In this document: piece by piece, positions 25,463 to 51,135 of the stretch
Position numbering within the stretch: position 1 is the first letter of the stretch
Layout: the number at the start of each line of letters is the position of its first letter
Source of the DNA: Streptomyces sp. NBC_01788
Lineage (GTDB): Bacteria > Actinomycetota > Actinomycetes > Streptomycetales > Streptomycetaceae
Length of the DNA stretch: 64,000 bases
Assembly: GCF_035917575.1 (NCBI RefSeq)
Contig: NZ_CP109090.1
Coordinates: forward strand, 2,976,001-3,040,000
Direction: 5' to 3'
The notes under the pieces: generated by a model
Databases searched by the model: none
The model's input: the letters and a program-made list of their open reading frames with translations, nothing else
What the model was told of the DNA's origin: nothing
Program-made: the position numbers and the translations under genes

Positions 25463-26461
25463 ATGCCGCAGACCGAGGCACCGGCACGGCGCACCGAGAC
25501 GGCCCCGCACACCCGGCCACGCTGGTGGACCGAGCTGCCGCTGATCCTGCTGGTCTACGGCTGCTACTCGGCGGGCCGGCTGCTGGCCCGCGGCGACGTC
25601 ACCACGGCCGTCGACCACGGCCTGGCGATCCTGCGCGTCGAGAAGCTGCTGCGCCTCAACGCGGAGCACCCCCTCAACCGCCTGTTCACCCGTGAGCCGT
25701 GGCTGGGCATACCCGCCGACTTCTGGTACGCGTCACTGCACTACCTGGTCACCCCCGTGATCCTGGTGTGGCTGTTCAGAGCGCGCACCACTCACTACCG
25801 GGCGGCCCGCACCTGGCTGATGACGTCCACGTTCATAGGACTGATCGGCTTCACCCTGCTGCCCACCTGCCCGCCCCGCCTGCTCTCCCCGGACCACGGG
25901 TTCGTGGACACGATGGCCCAGTACAGCTCGTACGGCTGGTGGGGCGGTGAGGCCAGCGCGCCGCGGGGCATGGGTGGCATGACCAACCAGTACGCGGCCA
26001 TGCCGAGCCTGCACGTGGGCTGGGCCCTGTGGTGCGGGGTGATGCTGTGGCGCCACGGCGGCACGCGCACGGCGAAGGCGGCGGGCGTCGCCTACCCGCT
26101 GCTGACCGCGCTGGTCGTGATGGGCACCGCCAACCACTACCTCCTGGACGCGGCCGCGGGCGTGGCCGTCATGGGGATCGGCATGCTGCTCGCGCCGTTC
26201 GTGATGCGGGGCGCGGACCGTGCCAAGGCACTCCTGACACCCGGCGCCACGGCCGTCCCAGAGGCCTCCGGTGCCGCGGGGTCCCCGATTGTCAGTGGTG
26301 GATGCCAGACTTCGGCGGGTGAGCGAATTCCACGGCAGCGCGAAGCACGGTTCGGTCCCGGAGCCGAACCGGGTGCCGTCCCCGAGGACGCGGGAGACGG
26401 CGCTCAAGCCTGGGGCCTTGCCGGCCCGAGCGACGTCGAGAGCTTGGGCAAGGCTCGCTGA
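25463..26461 (+). CDS. PAP2/AUR1-type membrane phosphatase with long C-terminal tail
   Basis: A 332-residue membrane protein. Six helices occupy residues 20-255 ([47 protein letters not shown]). The PAP2 signature appears as [11 protein letters not shown] and [15 protein letters not shown], with the catalytic His of each. It resembles AUR1/inositol phosphoryl transferases of mycobacteria and Streptomyces that act on polyprenyl or inositol lipids. The last 75 residues are polar and disordered, and their codons overlap the nuclease gene by 143 nt in another frame. That overlap is unusual, so the true C-terminus or the next start may be misplaced. Confidence 0.87.
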
Positions 26462-27545
26462 GCTGCGCGGTCCCGGCGTACCGCCCCGGGCGCTCGACGC
26501 CCGTGCCCTGGCCGCGCTCGCCGCGAACCCCGGCTGCGGACGACGCGCGGTCCTGGACGGCGCCGGCGTGGACAAGGCGGCGCTCGCGGAGGCGCTGGGG
26601 GCGCCCGCCGCCTTCGGGCAGTCGCAGTTCGCCTTCATGCGGGGCAACGCGTTCGAGGCGCGGGTCAAGGCGGACGGCGGCGCCGAGCTGCTGAGGCTGG
26701 CGCACACCAGGCTGGACCCGGGCGCCGAACCACCGCAAGAGGGCCGGGTGCCCGACCTGAGCGCCGTCGGCCCCGAGGGGCGTACGGCGCGTACGGCGCT
26801 GGCGCTGCGCGAGGCCACGCAGGCGGGCACCTGGACGCTCCTCGACCACCCGATGCTCGCCCTGGAGGTGGCCGGCTCGCCCGTCCATCTGGAGCCGGAC
26901 GCGGTGGTGGTGCACCCGGACGGGAGCTGGACGGTGGTGGAGATCAAGTCCTTCCCGATGCTGGACGGCTCCGCCGACCCGGCCAAGGTGGGGGCGGCCG
27001 CCCGCCAGTCGGCGGTGTACGTGCTGGCGCTGGAGGACGTCGCCGCGCGCCTCGACCCCGCCCCGCGCGTGCGGCACCGGGTGCTCCTGGTGTGCCCCAA
27101 GGACTTCTCCAACCTGCCGACCGCGTCCGCCGTCGACGTCCGCAAGCAGCGCGCGGTGACCGCCCGCCAGCTGACCCGGCTGGCCCGTGTCGAGGACATC
27201 GCGGACGCCCTGCCCGAGGGCGTGTGCTTCTCCCCCGAGCTGTCCCCGGAAGAGCTGACGACCGCGGTGGAGGCGGTCCCGGCGACGTACGCGCCCGAGT
27301 GCCTGGCCGCGTGCGAGCTGGCCTTCCACTGCCGTACGCGGTCCCGCGAGCGGGGCGCGGTGACGGCGCTGGGCCGCTCGGTCCGCGCCGACCTGGGCGG
27401 CCTCTCGACGGTCGAGGACGTGCTGGCGGCCGCCCACGGCGAGGCGGGCGACCCGGACGACCCGGCGGTGGCGGCGCTGCGCCGGGCCGCCGCGCTGCGG
27501 GCCGAGGCCCTGGAGGCGGCCGGGCGGGAGGCGGTGTGTCGCTGA
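26319..27545 (+). CDS. RecB/Cas4-family PD-(D/E)XK nuclease with four candidate Fe-S cysteines
   Basis: A predicted 408-residue DNA exonuclease. Seen in sequence: motif RGNAFE (Glu113), Asp194 in LEPDAVVV, the E-x-K pair Glu208/Lys210 in WTVVEIKSF and the RecB motif QxxxY (Gln230, Tyr234). Together these make a complete PD-(D/E)XK site. Cys73 (NPGCGRRAVLDG) lies before the nuclease fold; Cys328, Cys332 and Cys338 (PECLAACELAFHC) lie after it. This is the arrangement of the 4Fe-4S staple in Cas4, AddB and Dna2. GTG 26319 is a weak start and it overlaps the PAP2 gene. The stop overlaps the next gene by 10 nt. With the helicase two genes on, it forms a split Dna2-like system; that is inference. 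Confidence 0.85.
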   Translation: MSEFHGSAKHGSVPEPNRVPSPRTRETALKPGALPARATSRAWARLAELRGPGVPPRALDARALAALAANPGCGRRAVLDGAGVDKAALAEALGAPAAFGQSQFAFMRGNAFEARVKADGGAELLRLAHTRLDPGAEPPQEGRVPDLSAVGPEGRTARTALALREATQAGTWTLLDHPMLALEVAGSPVHLEPDAVVVHPDGSWTVVEIKSFPMLDGSADPAKVGAAARQSAVYVLALEDVAARLDPAPRVRHRVLLVCPKDFSNLPTASAVDVRKQRAVTARQLTRLARVEDIADALPEGVCFSPELSPEELTTAVEAVPATYAPECLAACELAFHCRTRSRERGAVTALGRSVRADLGGLSTVEDVLAAAHGEAGDPDDPAVAALRRAAALRAEALEAAGREAVCR

Positions 27546-29140
27546 TCGCCACCCTGGGCCGTCTGGAGGCCGTGCGGTCCGGGCGGGCCCAGCCCGCCGC
27601 GACCGTCCGGCACCGGCACCTGTCGGAGCGGCCGCTGGTGTTCGTGCCGCTCACCACCGCCGGTGAGGCGGGCGCCCCGCTCGGCGCGCTGGTCGGCACG
27701 GACCGTGCCGCGCCGCGGCTGCTGGCCGTGCCGCAGCCACGCGACCGCGACCTGCGGTTCGCGTTCCTGGCCGAACTGGCCGGCATCGTCCTGCCGTACA
27801 TCGACTCCTTCGCCGACGTGGTCGAGGGCGCAGAGCGCAACGAGACCGACCCGGAGAGCGGCAAGCGGGTCAAGGTCGAGGTGGAGCTGTGCGCGGACGC
27901 GCCCCAGCTGATCCTGCCGAGCCGCGCGGGCATCGACTTCGTACGGCTCCTCGGACGCTCGATGCGCTTCCGCCGCACCGCCGAGCAGGACCCGGAGACC
28001 CCGCATCCGGCGCCGCCGCGGGTGCCGTTGCTCGGGCGGTGGCTGACCCACTTCGGGGAGCGGGCGCGGGTGCCCGGTTCCTCGCTGCTGCCGGCGATGA
28101 CCGACCTGCTGGCCCAGCACTGGACGACCGGCCAGTCCAGCCTGGAGGACCAGCACCTGGGGGCGCTGCTGGCGTGGATCGCCCCGCCGGACGGCGCGTC
28201 GGGTGCCGAGGCCGCGCTGCGTGCCGAGCTCGCCCGCGCCTCCGACGGCCAGTTGGAGTGCCCGCCCGCGGGCCCCGCCACCGATCCGGCCTTCGACAAC
28301 AAGCTGCTGGCGCCCGCGATCGAGCGCTACGACCGTGCCCGCACCGCGTTCGCCGCCGCCGAGGACGGCATGGAGGCCGACGCGCGGCTCGGCACCCTCG
28401 CCGAGGCCGAGCAGCACATCCGCGACCTGGTCGAGAAGTGCGCCCGCCCCACCTGGGACAACGTCTGGCGCGGCCTGGACCTGCTGCGGACACTGCCCGA
28501 GGGCGCGCACGTCGAGGAGCGCTGGACGCGCGACCGCTGGTCGTTCACCGGCCACCGCGACCGGGTGCTGGCCGGCGAACCGCCGCAGCCGCGTCGCGAC
28601 GACGCGGTCACCGCGGCGAACAAGCTGGCCACGCGCGAGCGTGAGCAGGCCCGTCTGGAGGCGCAGGAGGCGCTGGACGACCCGCTGGTCATGGCGGGGC
28701 GGCGGCTGGCCGGGGAGGCGTTCGCGGGCGAGGTCACGGACGTCGTCATGGCCTACAGCGAGGGCAAGCGGCCCAGTCCGCGCCCGCTGGTCACCGTGCG
28801 CACCGACGACGGGCCGCATCTGGGCGAGCGGGCCAGGGTGTACCGCTCGCTGGACGGCAAGCCGCAGTCGGCGGAGTTCGTCGCCTGCGAGGAGGACACC
28901 GCCGAAGGGACGCTCGTCGTCCTGCGGATCCTGGACAGGATGGGCCGCGGCAAGGAGCCCGCGGCCGGTTCCGTGCCGGACAAGGGCGACCGCCTGTGCT
29001 TCACGCTGTTCGAGCACGAGCAGCGCGGCGGCGCGAAGCTGCCCGACCCGGAGCAGACCCCATGGACGCACGGCGGCCCGCCGGGCGAGGAGAGCACGCC
29101 GGAGGCCCCGGACCCGGTGACCGAGGAGGATCTTCTGTGA
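27536..29140 (+). CDS. unknown middle protein of the nuclease-helicase operon
   Basis: A soluble 534-residue protein without a recognised domain. The N-terminal half is beta-rich (ERPLVFVPLTTAGEAGAPLG; RVKVEVELCADAPQLILP) and the middle is helical, with a Trp/Arg-rich stretch (RPTWDNVWRGLDLLRTLPEG). The region near residue 360-400 is a charged helix (AANKLATREREQARLEAQEA). The last 130 residues look like an OB- or SH3-like beta domain (GPHLGERARVYRSLDGKPQS; GTLVVLRILDRMGRGKEPAA). GTG 27536 has GGGAGG five nt upstream. It overlaps both neighbours (10 nt and 4 nt), so all three proteins should be made together. A DNA-binding or scaffold role is a guess. Confidence 0.85.
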   Translation: MSLIATLGRLEAVRSGRAQPAATVRHRHLSERPLVFVPLTTAGEAGAPLGALVGTDRAAPRLLAVPQPRDRDLRFAFLAELAGIVLPYIDSFADVVEGAERNETDPESGKRVKVEVELCADAPQLILPSRAGIDFVRLLGRSMRFRRTAEQDPETPHPAPPRVPLLGRWLTHFGERARVPGSSLLPAMTDLLAQHWTTGQSSLEDQHLGALLAWIAPPDGASGAEAALRAELARASDGQLECPPAGPATDPAFDNKLLAPAIERYDRARTAFAAAEDGMEADARLGTLAEAEQHIRDLVEKCARPTWDNVWRGLDLLRTLPEGAHVEERWTRDRWSFTGHRDRVLAGEPPQPRRDDAVTAANKLATREREQARLEAQEALDDPLVMAGRRLAGEAFAGEVTDVVMAYSEGKRPSPRPLVTVRTDDGPHLGERARVYRSLDGKPQSAEFVACEEDTAEGTLVVLRILDRMGRGKEPAAGSVPDKGDRLCFTLFEHEQRGGAKLPDPEQTPWTHGGPPGEESTPEAPDPVTEEDLL

Positions 29141-30513
29141 CCGCCCCCGCCCAGGACCCCGCGGTCGGCCCCGCCGGCCTCCGGACGCCCTTCGACCCCG
29201 GGGCGGCGGCCGCCCGCGCGACGGACGCGATCCTCCGCGACACGCTGCACGGCACGGACCGCGGGGTCGTCGTCGACTCCCCGCCCGGCGCGGGGAAGTC
29301 GACCCTGGTCGTGCGCGCGGCGCTGGAGCTGGCCGCCGCCGGACGGCCGCTGATGGTGGTCGCGCAGACCAACGCCCAGGTCGACGACCTGGTGCTGCGG
29401 CTGGCGGAGAAGAACCCCGAACTGCCCGTGGGCCGGCTGCACAGCAGCGACACCGACCCGTACGACAAGGCACTCGACGGTCTGCCGAACGTACGGAAGT
29501 CGGCGAAGGCCGCCGACCTCACGGGACTCGACGTGGTCCTGTCGACCGCCGCGAAGTGGGCGCATGTGAAGGTCGACGAGCCGTGGCGGCACGCGATCGT
29601 CGACGAGGCGTACCAAATGCGCTCGGACGCCCTGCTCGCGGTGGCCGGGCTGTTCGAGCGGGCGCTGTTCGTGGGCGATCCGGGTCAGCTCGACCCGTTC
29701 GCGATCGTCGGCAGCGAGCAGTGGGCGGGCCTGTCCTACGACCCGTCGGCGTCCGCGGTGACGACGCTGCTGGCCCACAATCCGCGGCTGCCCCAGCACC
29801 GGCTGCCCGTGTCCTGGCGGCTTCCGGCGTCGGCGGCGCCGCTGGTCTCCGACGCGTTCTACCCGTACACGCCGTTCCGCAGCGGCACGTCGGCCGGGGA
29901 CCGGCGGCTGACGTTCGCGGTCCCCTCGGACGGCTCCGGTCCCGACCGGGTGCTCGACGAGGCCGCCGAGTCCGGCTGGGGCCTGCTGGAGCTGCCCGCG
30001 CGGCACACTCCGCGCACCGATCCGGAGGCGGTGCGGGCGGTGGCGGCGGTCGTACGGCGGCTGCTGGAGCGGGGCGGGGCGGCCGTCTCGGAGCGGTCGC
30101 CAGACCCTGCGCCGCTGACCGCGGACCGGATCGCCGTCGGCACGGCGCACCGCGACCAGGCAGCCGCCGTGCGGGCGGCGCTGGCGGAACTGGGCGTGAC
30201 GGATGTCATCGTGGACACGGCGAACCGCCTCCAGGGCCGTGAGTTCGACGTGACCGTCGTCCTGCACCCGTTGTCCGGGCGCCCGGACGCCACCGCCTTC
30301 CACCTGGAGACCGGCCGCCTGTGCGTCCTCGCCTCCCGCCACCGGCACGCCTGCGTCGTGGTCTGCCGCGCGGGTGTGACCGACCTCCTGGACGACCACC
30401 CGTCCACGGAACCGGTCCAACTGGGAGTGACGGTGAAGTTCCCGGACGGCTGGGAAGCGAACCACGCGGTACTGGCCCACCTGCGAGAACACCGGGTGCC
30501 CTGGCGGCCCTGA
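29137..30513 (+). CDS. superfamily 1 helicase (Dna2/Upf1-like)
   Basis: A predicted 458-residue ATP-dependent helicase. Walker A is SPPGAGKST (48-56), motif Ia is VVAQTNAQVDDL, and motif II is AIVDEAYQM with Asp156-Glu157. Motif III is FVGDPGQLDPF and an Arg finger candidate is in LPVSWRLP. Motif V is VDTANRLQGREFDVTVV and motif VI is CVLASRHRHACVVV. The DEA box and GDPGQL point to the SF1B Dna2/Upf1 group. GTG 29137 overlaps the previous stop (GTGA). The last 21 codons fall inside the first copy of a 136-bp tandem repeat. With the Fe-S nuclease at 26.3 kb it makes a split Dna2-like pair. Confidence 0.9.
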   Translation: MTAPAQDPAVGPAGLRTPFDPGAAAARATDAILRDTLHGTDRGVVVDSPPGAGKSTLVVRAALELAAAGRPLMVVAQTNAQVDDLVLRLAEKNPELPVGRLHSSDTDPYDKALDGLPNVRKSAKAADLTGLDVVLSTAAKWAHVKVDEPWRHAIVDEAYQMRSDALLAVAGLFERALFVGDPGQLDPFAIVGSEQWAGLSYDPSASAVTTLLAHNPRLPQHRLPVSWRLPASAAPLVSDAFYPYTPFRSGTSAGDRRLTFAVPSDGSGPDRVLDEAAESGWGLLELPARHTPRTDPEAVRAVAAVVRRLLERGGAAVSERSPDPAPLTADRIAVGTAHRDQAAAVRAALAELGVTDVIVDTANRLQGREFDVTVVLHPLSGRPDATAFHLETGRLCVLASRHRHACVVVCRAGVTDLLDDHPSTEPVQLGVTVKFPDGWEANHAVLAHLREHRVPWRP

Positions 30514-30934
30514 CCGGCACCCGGCCTCCCGCCGGACGGAGTCCGGCACGCCGCCGGAGGCGGCCGTCGAACACAGCCCGGACGGCTGGGAAGCGAACCA
30601 CGCGGTACTGGCCCACCTGCGAGAACACCGGGTGCCCTGGCGACCCTGACCGGCACCCGGCCTCCCGCCGGACGGAGTCCGCCACGCCGCCGGAGGCGGC
30701 CGTCGAACACAGCCCCGACGGCTGGGAGGCGAACCACGCCGTGATGGCCCACCTGCGAGAACACCGGGTGCCCTGGCGGCCCTGACCGGCACCCGGCCTC
30801 CCGCCGGACGGAGTCCGCCACGCCGCCGGAGGCGGCCGTCGAACACAGCCCCGACGGCTGGGAAGCGAACCACGCGGTCCTGGCCCACCTGCGAGAACAC
30901 CGGGTGCCCTGGCGGCCCTGACCGGCGCCCCCGG
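30445..30934 (+). repeat. four-copy 136-bp tandem repeat made from the helicase 3' end
   Basis: Copies start at 30445, 30581, 30717 and 30853, an exact 136-bp period, the last being partial. Copy 1 is the real end of the helicase gene (DGWEANHAVLAHLREHRVPW then stop). Later copies keep the same words, with differences that are mostly synonymous (GAA/GAG, CGG/CGA, GTA/GTG/GTC; one Leu to Met). Each unit folds three hairpins: CCGGGTGCC/GGCACCCGG across the stop codon, GGAC-GGA-GTCC, and GCCGCC-GGA-GGCGGC. As 136 is not a multiple of three, copies fall in different frames. It is not a CRISPR array. Confidence 0.95.
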
Positions 30935-31072: not shown

Positions 31073-31447
31073 ATGGCGGAGCCAACGCCGCGTCGTGACG
31101 AACAGCGGCTACGCCCCGCGCCCCTGCTCTTCGAGCCCGCCGAGGCGGCCGCCGACCCCGAGCACTTCTTCGACCTGGAGTCGATCGACGATCCGCGGGC
31201 GCTGCTCTCGCGGGCGACGGAGCTGACGGTCGCGTTCCGCGCGGCGGCGGACCGGGCGGTGGAGTTCCAGGCGATCGCGGCGGCGCAACTCGCCGACCCG
31301 CGGCGGTTCGACCGGCTGACCGCGGCGGCCATCGCCGAGCGGGCCGACTGGACCGAGGACTACGCCAAGAAGATGGTGGAGTTCGGCCGGGACCTGCTGA
31401 GCGGAGCCGAGGGCGGCGTGCACGCCAACCCGGCCGACCCGGTCTGA
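31073..31447 (+). CDS. small conserved helical protein
   Basis: A 124-residue acidic, mostly helical protein (DDPRALLSRATELTVAFRAA; RAVEFQAIAAAQLADPRRFD; WTEDYAKKMVEFGRDLLSG) with no membrane segment and no known motif. ATG 31073 follows GAGGAGG by seven nt, an excellent ribosome site. It lies 140 nt after the tandem repeats and is probably transcribed from its own promoter. Function is unknown. Confidence 0.82.
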   Translation: MAEPTPRRDEQRLRPAPLLFEPAEAAADPEHFFDLESIDDPRALLSRATELTVAFRAAADRAVEFQAIAAAQLADPRRFDRLTAAAIAERADWTEDYAKKMVEFGRDLLSGAEGGVHANPADPV

Positions 31448-31593: not shown

Positions 31594-32232
31594 ATGAGCC
31601 GCACAGGGAACCATCCCTTCGCCGACCACCTCGACCAACGGGCAGGCCACCGCTCCGACGCCTCGGGCGTCACCGCGGACGGCGCCGCCTGGCTGGCCTC
31701 GGCGGGCGCGTATCCCCGCAGCACGCTCGCCCTCTGGCAGGAGCGGCCGGACGCCCCGCTCGTACTGGCCTGCGGCACCGTCTTCGACGTGGTGAACGTG
31801 CCCGCGATCTTCGGCCGCCGGATGCTGGACCGACTGTGGGACGAGGGCCCGGGGTCGGGTCCGGTGGCCGTCCACCGGGGACGGATGCTGCTCTTCGCCG
31901 CGGCCGGCACCGCACACCGGCTGCCCTCGCTGCTGGAGTGGGAGGAGTGGGGCTGCCGCGGCCGGGACGACGGCCGCAAGGAGGGCATCCCGCCCCTGCT
32001 GTGCCACGGCAACGGCGACGCGGTGACCCTCCCGGCCCTGTCCGGCGAGGCTCTGCCCATGCGGCCCGCCTCCCGCTGGCTCGTCGCCCCGGACACCCGC
32101 CACCCCTGGCTGCCGGGCCCGGAGATCATGCTCTGGGCGGCCGTGCGGGCAGCCCGCGCGGCGGTGCGGATATCGATTTTTCCTCCCAGCGACCAGGATG
32201 CTAAGGTCTACGACGTCAGCAGGCGCCGCTAG
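31594..32232 (+). CDS. conserved hypothetical protein, possibly primase/polymerase-like
   Basis: A 212-residue soluble protein (TADGAAWLASAGAYPRSTLA; PLVLACGTVFDVVNVPAIFG; PVAVHRGRMLLFAAAGTAHR; IPPLLCHGNGDAVTLPALSG). It resembles short Streptomyces proteins that databases label bifunctional DNA primase/polymerase, from memory; the acidic catalytic triad cannot be confirmed here. No ribosome site is visible, and TAGATA 8 nt upstream looks like a -10, so the mRNA may be leaderless. The conserved part appears to end near LWAAVRAARAAVR. The remaining codons run through the tRNA promoter, and the stop lies 10 nt inside tRNA-Lys. Confidence 0.68.
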   Translation: MSRTGNHPFADHLDQRAGHRSDASGVTADGAAWLASAGAYPRSTLALWQERPDAPLVLACGTVFDVVNVPAIFGRRMLDRLWDEGPGSGPVAVHRGRMLLFAAAGTAHRLPSLLEWEEWGCRGRDDGRKEGIPPLLCHGNGDAVTLPALSGEALPMRPASRWLVAPDTRHPWLPGPEIMLWAAVRAARAAVRISIFPPSDQDAKVYDVSRRR

Positions 32233-32296
32233 CTCAGTTGGTTAGAGCAGCTGACTCTTAATCAGCGGGTCCGGGGTTCGAGTCCCTGGCGGCGCA
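32223..32296 (+). tRNA. tRNA-Lys (anticodon CTT), copy 1
   Basis: Complete cloverleaf with acceptor GCGCCGC/GCGGCGC, D-arm AGCTCAGTTGGTTAGAGC, anticodon loop ACTCTTAAT and T-arm CCGGGGTTCGAGTCCCTGG. No CCA encoded. TAAGGT (32202-32207) ends 15 nt before it and is the likely -10. The 74-nt sequence is identical to the copies at 46.9 and 51.1 kb. Confidence 0.97.
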
Positions 32297-32302
32297 CGAC
32301 GA

Positions 32303-46945: not shown

Positions 46946-47019
46946 GCGCCGCTAGCTCAGTTGGTTAGAGCAGCTGACTCTTAATCAGCGGGTCCGGGGT
47001 TCGAGTCCCTGGCGGCGCA
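46946..47019 (+). tRNA. tRNA-Lys (anticodon CTT), copy 2
   Basis: Identical over all 74 nt to the copies at 32.2 and 51.1 kb; anticodon loop ACTCTTAAT. No CCA encoded. It lies between the ABC operon and a convergent small gene. Confidence 0.97.
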
Positions 47020-47025
47020 CGGATG

Positions 47026-51053: not shown

Positions 51054-51127
51054 GCGCCGCTAGCTCAGTTGGTTAGAGCAGCTGACTCTTAATCAGCGGG
51101 TCCGGGGTTCGAGTCCCTGGCGGCGCA
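51054..51127 (+). tRNA. tRNA-Lys (anticodon CTT), copy 3
   Basis: Identical over all 74 nt to copies 1 and 2. Here the next three bases are CCA. TAAAGT (51033-51038) starts 21 nt before, the same spacing as TAAGGT before copy 1, so these are likely -10 elements. Confidence 0.97.
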
Positions 51128-51135
51128 CCACGACA

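Follow-up and report, generated by a model that had tools for sequence, protein, structure and literature searches.

The stretch of DNA analyzed here (the window) comprises 64,000 nucleotides from Streptomyces sp. NBC_01788 (NZ_CP109090.1, positions 2,976,001 to 3,040,000) and carries an operon of three overlapping genes. We consider it probable that this locus encodes a DNA-damage-inducible, three-subunit helicase-nuclease of the Dna2 type that serves as a core repair enzyme in Streptomyces. The direct basis for this assignment is the order and overlap of the genes, the conservation of their motifs, their co-occurrence, the predicted folds of the first two products and a promoter motif. The original prediction, made from the letters of the window, was of a split Dna2-like nuclease and helicase with an unknown third protein, and the split is now well supported by fold, motifs, cysteine pattern, co-occurrence and conserved gene order.

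The three genes and their products

All three genes lie on the + strand. Gene 1 (26319..27545, with an alternative start at 26373) codes for a RecB/Cas4-family PD-(D/E)XK nuclease with a four-cysteine iron-staple layout, gene 2 (27536..29140) for an unnamed subunit of 534 amino acids, and gene 3 (29137..30513) for a short superfamily 1B (SF1B) helicase that includes only the RecA1 and RecA2 domains. The coordinates of the open reading frames (ORFs) bear out the predicted overlaps of 10 nucleotides between genes 1 and 2 and 4 nucleotides between genes 2 and 3. The genome around the window is a single contig of 8.27 Mb.

Protein searches, each scoring about 8000 candidates, returned 3033 relatives of gene 1, 3491 of gene 2 and 4635 of gene 3. 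The 120 listed for each gene are from Streptomyces wherever an organism is named, and are annotated mostly as hypothetical proteins (genes 1 and 2) or as AAA proteins or helicases (gene 3). Conservation of the triplet across Actinobacteria, a check proposed with the original prediction, is evident in an evenly drawn sample of 394 Actinomycetes genomes, where each gene is found in the identical set of 70 genomes. These carriers include 39 of the 40 same-genus genomes listed and 31 genomes of other genera; G504 is a Streptomyces genome among those listed that lacks all three genes. Across the whole phylum, 11 of 296 sampled genomes carry gene 2. No relative of the triplet was found in phage records, and none of five pattern stretches in viral contigs was confirmed as a relative.

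The order 1-2-3 on a single strand is kept in 63 of the 66 loci read, and the median spacing at both junctions in relatives is a 4-nucleotide overlap. In the loci fetched, nuclease and helicase are encoded by different ORFs, most of which overlap. The three exceptions to the 1-2-3 order are a contig end and two genomes of one genus in which gene 3 lies 37-50 kb away. That these genomes still keep gene 3 once it has moved away from genes 1 and 2 points to a common function of the triplet.

The gene 1 product carries the motifs LEPD...VVEIK...QSAVY, corresponding to Asp194, Glu208, Lys210, Gln230 and Tyr234 (numbered from the GTG at 26319), together with Cys73 near the N terminus and Cys328, Cys332 and Cys338 near the C terminus. 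Both the nuclease site and the arrangement of one N-terminal and three C-terminal cysteines are therefore as originally claimed. A survey of 139 different full-length gene 1 proteins found all nine residues intact in 129 of them. Each cysteine is kept in 138, and the catalytic residues in 135 (Asp), 135 (Glu), 136 (Lys), 137 (Gln) and 137 (Tyr). Loss of the E-x-K or cysteine positions in most homologs, which would have refuted the original prediction, was not seen, as both are kept in nearly all 139. The AlphaFold model adopts a Cas4/Exo5/Dna2 nuclease fold, and a structure search likewise recovered the PD-(D/E)XK fold, with Cas4 among the nearest (VIA, Foldseek). The protein thus has the fold, the D/E-x-K/Q-x3-Y residue set and the cysteine layout of an iron-staple RecB-family nuclease. 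The C-terminal cysteines are spaced C-X3-C-X5-C; the spacing in Cas4 and AddB is C-X2-C-X5-C. No match at E <= 1 was found in Pfam, NCBIfam or PADLOC, and a profile search of the PDB yielded nothing beyond repeat proteins and a single viral protein (E 0.21). Six loci (L021, L082, L163, L172, L180 and L071) carry a gene 1 that has lost catalytic residues and kept all four cysteines, and the degenerate copy of L021 adjoins a gene for an HmaA-type helicase.

The gene 3 product matches Pfam AAA_11 (5e-12) and AAA_12 (9.5e-8), consistent with an AAA protein of the DNA2/NAM7 type. An alignment of 39 rows shows no variation at the residues assigned to the Walker A, DEA, GDPGQL, SWR, QG and R-x-R-type motifs, and profile matches by sequence include IGHMBP2, DNA2, UPF1 and NAM7. 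Helicase motifs I to VI of the SF1B DNA2/NAM7 group are all present, as had been predicted. From position 19-20, the gene 3 profile aligns to residues 198-257 of IGHMBP2 and 635-807 of DNA2; by profile, the chain begins at the RecA1 domain and the 1B beta-barrel is not found within it.

A tandem array of 3.6 copies of a 136-bp unit (30441..30930, + strand) repeats, beyond the stop codon, the last ~24 codons of gene 3 together with the 3' flank. Gene 3 homologues conserve the copied tail (PDGWEAN...) throughout the family.

Gene 2 was originally described as matching no known family, and this holds in Pfam, NCBIfam and PADLOC at E <= 1 save for one sub-threshold Pfam match to the cytochrome assembly protein CtaG (E 0.039), which we judged to be due to chance. 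A profile search of the PDB returned no match. AlphaFold models sharpen the picture of an unknown third protein. Residues 387-493 (28694..29014, + strand) form a beta-barrel, and the models, read partly in light of the genomic context, suggest that this C-terminal part is the 1B barrel of SF1B helicases that is missing from gene 3. The N-terminal part (residues 31-378; 27626..28669, + strand) may resemble the 3'-5' exonuclease domain found in DNA polymerases of family B, in a dead form, since its first strand lacks the conserved acidic residues. If the barrel is assigned correctly, then the order of the genes matches that of the Dna2 domains, namely nuclease, barrel and motor. Weighing against this assignment, the match of gene 2 to Sen1 is equalled by other barrel families, and we have kept our confidence in the Dna2-type enzyme, and in the end-destruction module suggested below, lower for this reason.

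We infer a mechanism in which the three subunits are co-translated and form a complex at a DNA end or a junction between single- and double-stranded DNA. Gene 1 would provide the iron-staple nuclease with its putative Fe-S cluster, and gene 3 the two RecA-like motor domains. Gene 2 would supply the 1B barrel and an N-terminal domain, perhaps with a dead exonuclease fold, that joins nuclease to motor. The motor would travel 5' to 3' and unwind the DNA, and the nuclease would cut the displaced strand.

A damage-type promoter motif

A motif of the RecA-NDp type, which is associated with LexA-independent DNA-damage promoters, is located upstream of gene 1 at 26289..26311 on the + strand (TTGTCAGTG-N8-CAGACT) and ends 7 nucleotides before the GTG. 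Relative to what we take to be the consensus, TTGTCRGTG-N8-TANNNT, the site has one deviation (C for T), and it is the sole match with up to one mismatch in the 64 kb. At two or fewer mismatches, the motif is present in 29 of 31 Streptomyces core loci versus 21 of 1788 random windows, although kinship of these loci accounts for part of the conservation. The 31 loci exclude L088, which is a contig end from outside Streptomyces. Among fourth-gene loci (described below), some of which were fetched twice, the motif is found in none of 48 that are linked to SbcCD and in 2 of 55 others.

An in-frame GTG lies 7 nucleotides 3' of the motif in 28 of the 31 core loci. The first in-frame GTG after the recA motif is also 7 nucleotides away, and it is not the usual recA start. 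This shared distance supports a gene 1 start at 26319 and suggests that the operon message might be leaderless. The closest gene 1 relatives among the matches listed have 390 amino acids, implying a start at 26373, but the promoter geometry favours 26319.

A relaxed pattern (YAG for TAN) that recovers the operon and recA sites alike has 22 matches in the genome versus none for a reversed control. Besides the operon, nine sites precede recA, ruvC, uvrA, a Y-family polymerase gene, two uracil-DNA glycosylase genes, two UvrD-type helicase genes and an exonuclease III-type gene, and the remaining 12 lie upstream of other or unclear genes. The operon shares the promoter motif of recA and would be under the same type of damage-inducible control. 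Genes for a DUF6461 protein (L213, 1531-2187) and a pentapeptide-repeat protein (L218, 820-1494, reverse strand) in this genome begin 6-7 nucleotides after a RecA-NDp-type motif and are candidate damage-response genes. PMC5087735 places RecA-NDp promoters upstream of many genes of the damage response in Actinomycetales. We name the motif without naming its regulator because, in PMC9380542, an initial search suggested that the Mycobacterium smegmatis PafBC motif is not conserved in Streptomyces venezuelae.

Control by LexA was also considered and rejected. Matches with up to two mismatches to CGAAC-N4-GTTCG, the SOS-box consensus, number 55 in the window versus 45 expected, which is close to chance, as is their frequency upstream of the operon in relatives. 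One site with a single mismatch lies inside gene 1, at 26341.

Mobile relatives and their links to SbcCD and Wadjet

A gene 2 tree (FastTree, 132 rows, leaving out 13 rows fetched twice or nearly identical and rows below 380 residues) places the Streptomyces core copies in one clade of 31 rows with a local support of 99; long branches are flagged in this tree. Outside the clade, many loci carry a fourth gene just upstream (median 277 amino acids), whose product has a conserved LRRDE motif. Its profile matches helical and coiled-coil proteins at the N terminus, and the better matches are themselves helical and coiled-coil stretches. A scan of 84,980 species genomes found 354 relatives of the fourth protein, and the figures that follow rest on the best 80 of these 354. 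The four genes stand side by side in 75 of the 80 loci, representing 25 named genera, and the other five loci are incomplete in the available DNA. Of the 80 loci, 41 have adjoining genes for SbcD and SbcC, either divergent and upstream (35) or co-directional and downstream (6). In the window genome, a search run without a positive control gave no match to the fourth gene, and an SbcD with 35% identity is unlinked, about 1.5 Mb from the operon.

Genes for TnsB-like transposases adjoin nine loci (L117, L122, L123, L127, L128, L134-L136 and L186), and the protein of L122 alone has a PADLOC match (E 1.4e-8). Further neighbours of relatives include type I restriction-modification (RM), pPIWI-RE, QatA, PDC-S73 and HmaA genes. 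In L134, a large NACHT/AAA gene lies on the other side of the SbcCD and four-gene cassette, and similar ORFs occur in L127, L135 and L136. Three loci on actinobacterial plasmids (L200, 3035-8137; L201, 2991-8134; L202, 3022-8128) have a different arrangement, in which a MoxR-like AAA ATPase gene is followed in turn by genes for a VWA protein, a small ORF, a gene 2-like protein and a short SF1B helicase. Here the helicase pair may serve a second purpose that involves no nuclease.

Within the available DNA, Wadjet genes are found near 18 of the 41 SbcCD-linked loci versus none of 39 other fourth-gene loci (p 7e-7), although single loci are not independent. When loci are clustered at 80% gene 2 identity, the counts are 14 of 24 versus 0 of 18 (p 4e-5). 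The 18 loci come from tblastn searches with PADLOC-identified Jet proteins and related ORFs, in which the loci that supplied queries match themselves at 100%. The identified proteins are from four loci and represent types I, II and III: JetA1, JetB1 and JetC1 (L177), JetA2, JetB2 and JetC2 (L179), JetA3 (L146) and JetC3 (L113). The weak members are L155, L124 and L184 (30-39% identity) and L160 and L166 (JetC2 at 30% identity only), and without the last two the count is 16 of 41. The Wadjet-linked loci have varied layouts, come from 12 genera and require at least nine gains or losses when placed on the tree of gene 2, a pattern that fits recurrent linkage better than a single inheritance. On two Streptomyces plasmids, sbcCD, the four genes and jetABCD follow one another directly, with sbcCD of the first fragmented as annotated. 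Wadjet is the commonest partner seen and not the sole one, with the PADLOC scan of neighbours covering part of the loci. No Jet gene was noticed in the core loci read, and a search of the window genome, which covered JetC1 only, gave no match.

PMC10586767 states that Wadjet cuts circular but not linear DNA. A module that processes the ends made by Wadjet would be its natural partner. We tentatively suggest, as a view that falls somewhat short of even odds, that SbcC, SbcD, the fourth protein and the products of genes 1 to 3 form a dedicated DNA-end destruction module for SMC-type defence, in which Wadjet opens circular DNA and the module resects and degrades the DNA so linearised. The core operon of Streptomyces would then be a domesticated, damage-inducible version, a bacterial answer to the MRN-DNA2 pair of eukaryotes with Dna2 split in three. 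On our main reading of the operon, relatives with the fourth gene, and often SbcCD, would carry out related end processing in defence islands, and the mobile form, which brings an Mre11-Rad50 of its own, appears to be this machine employed for defence. The original alternative of end processing or defence thus seems to resolve into both, with the core copy behind a damage-type promoter and the mobile relatives in defence islands, often near Wadjet.

Alternative readings and comparison with known systems

The setting of the mobile relatives, in defence islands and on plasmids beside Wadjet, type I RM, pPIWI-RE, QatA, HmaA and TnsB-like genes, raises the question of whether the core operon is itself an anti-phage or anti-plasmid system rather than a repair enzyme. 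We consider this unlikely, since the core copy is near-universal among the same-genus genomes listed, forms a single well-supported clade, has a largely conserved neighbourhood, has neither the fourth gene nor SbcCD next to it, and is preceded by a repair-type promoter motif that is rare among the mobile copies. Alternatively, the operon could reflect co-regulation of a helicase made from genes 2 and 3 with a separate nuclease, given the MoxR/VWA plasmid loci, where the pair has no obvious nuclease, and the catalytically degenerate gene 1 lineages. The occurrence of all three genes in one set of 70 genomes, the median overlap of 4 nucleotides at both junctions and the Dna2-like gene order make this quite improbable.

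Streptomyces chromosomes are linear, and PMC7430649 notes that DNA2 processes Okazaki fragments in eukaryotes, so flap or end maturation (telomere patching) is another conceivable role in place of damage repair. However, the damage-type promoter and the presence of the triplet in 31 genomes of other genera leave it very little probability. To our knowledge, those other families are not known for linear chromosomes. We therefore favour the damage-inducible Dna2-type repair enzyme.

Downstream of gene 3, many Streptomyces core loci keep an unnamed gene of 124 amino acids (31073-31447 in the window) and a primase-polymerase-like gene (PF09250; 31594-32232). The window also includes three identical copies of tRNA-Lys(CTT) within 19 kb (32223-32297, 46946-47020 and 51054-51130), the third of which is followed by CCA.

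No description of the triplet, its three-way split, the gene 2 family, the fourth gene or the SbcCD/Wadjet linkage was recognised in open-licence PubMed Central papers. The helicase-nuclease that almost all sampled Streptomyces carry in their core, with its damage-type promoter, seems to have neither a name nor a described function. Through the mobile relatives, Mre11-Rad50-type end processing becomes linked to Wadjet, which suggests a testable answer regarding the fate of Wadjet-cut DNA.

Among known systems, Wadjet (JetABCD, types I-III) is a frequent neighbour of the SbcCD-linked mobile form but shares no subunit with the triplet, and the window copy is not linked to it. Many mobile forms are accompanied by an SbcCD (Mre11-Rad50) of their own, in one of two layouts, and the core copy has none adjacent to it. 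Cas4 and the Argonaute-associated, Cas4-like ACE1 are among the closest nuclease folds to gene 1 (VIA, Foldseek), but the partner here is a helicase, and no Cas1/Cas2 or Argonaute gene was noticed beside the operon. The AddAB and AdnAB motors belong to SF1A and are fused to a nuclease, whereas the motor in the window is SF1B and separate. The nuclease and motor families are known, as is a single-chain bacterial DNA2, the Bad protein of Geobacillus stearothermophilus (PMC7430649). Like the triplet, DNA2 enzymes including Bad combine a four-cysteine RecB-family nuclease with an SF1B helicase in the same domain order. They are single polypeptides, whereas the window system has three separate ORFs, an extra N-terminal domain in gene 2, a C-X3-C-X5-C spacing of the last cysteines and a damage-type promoter. 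The window operon looks like a Dna2 divided into subunits, which lend themselves to new combinations with other partners.

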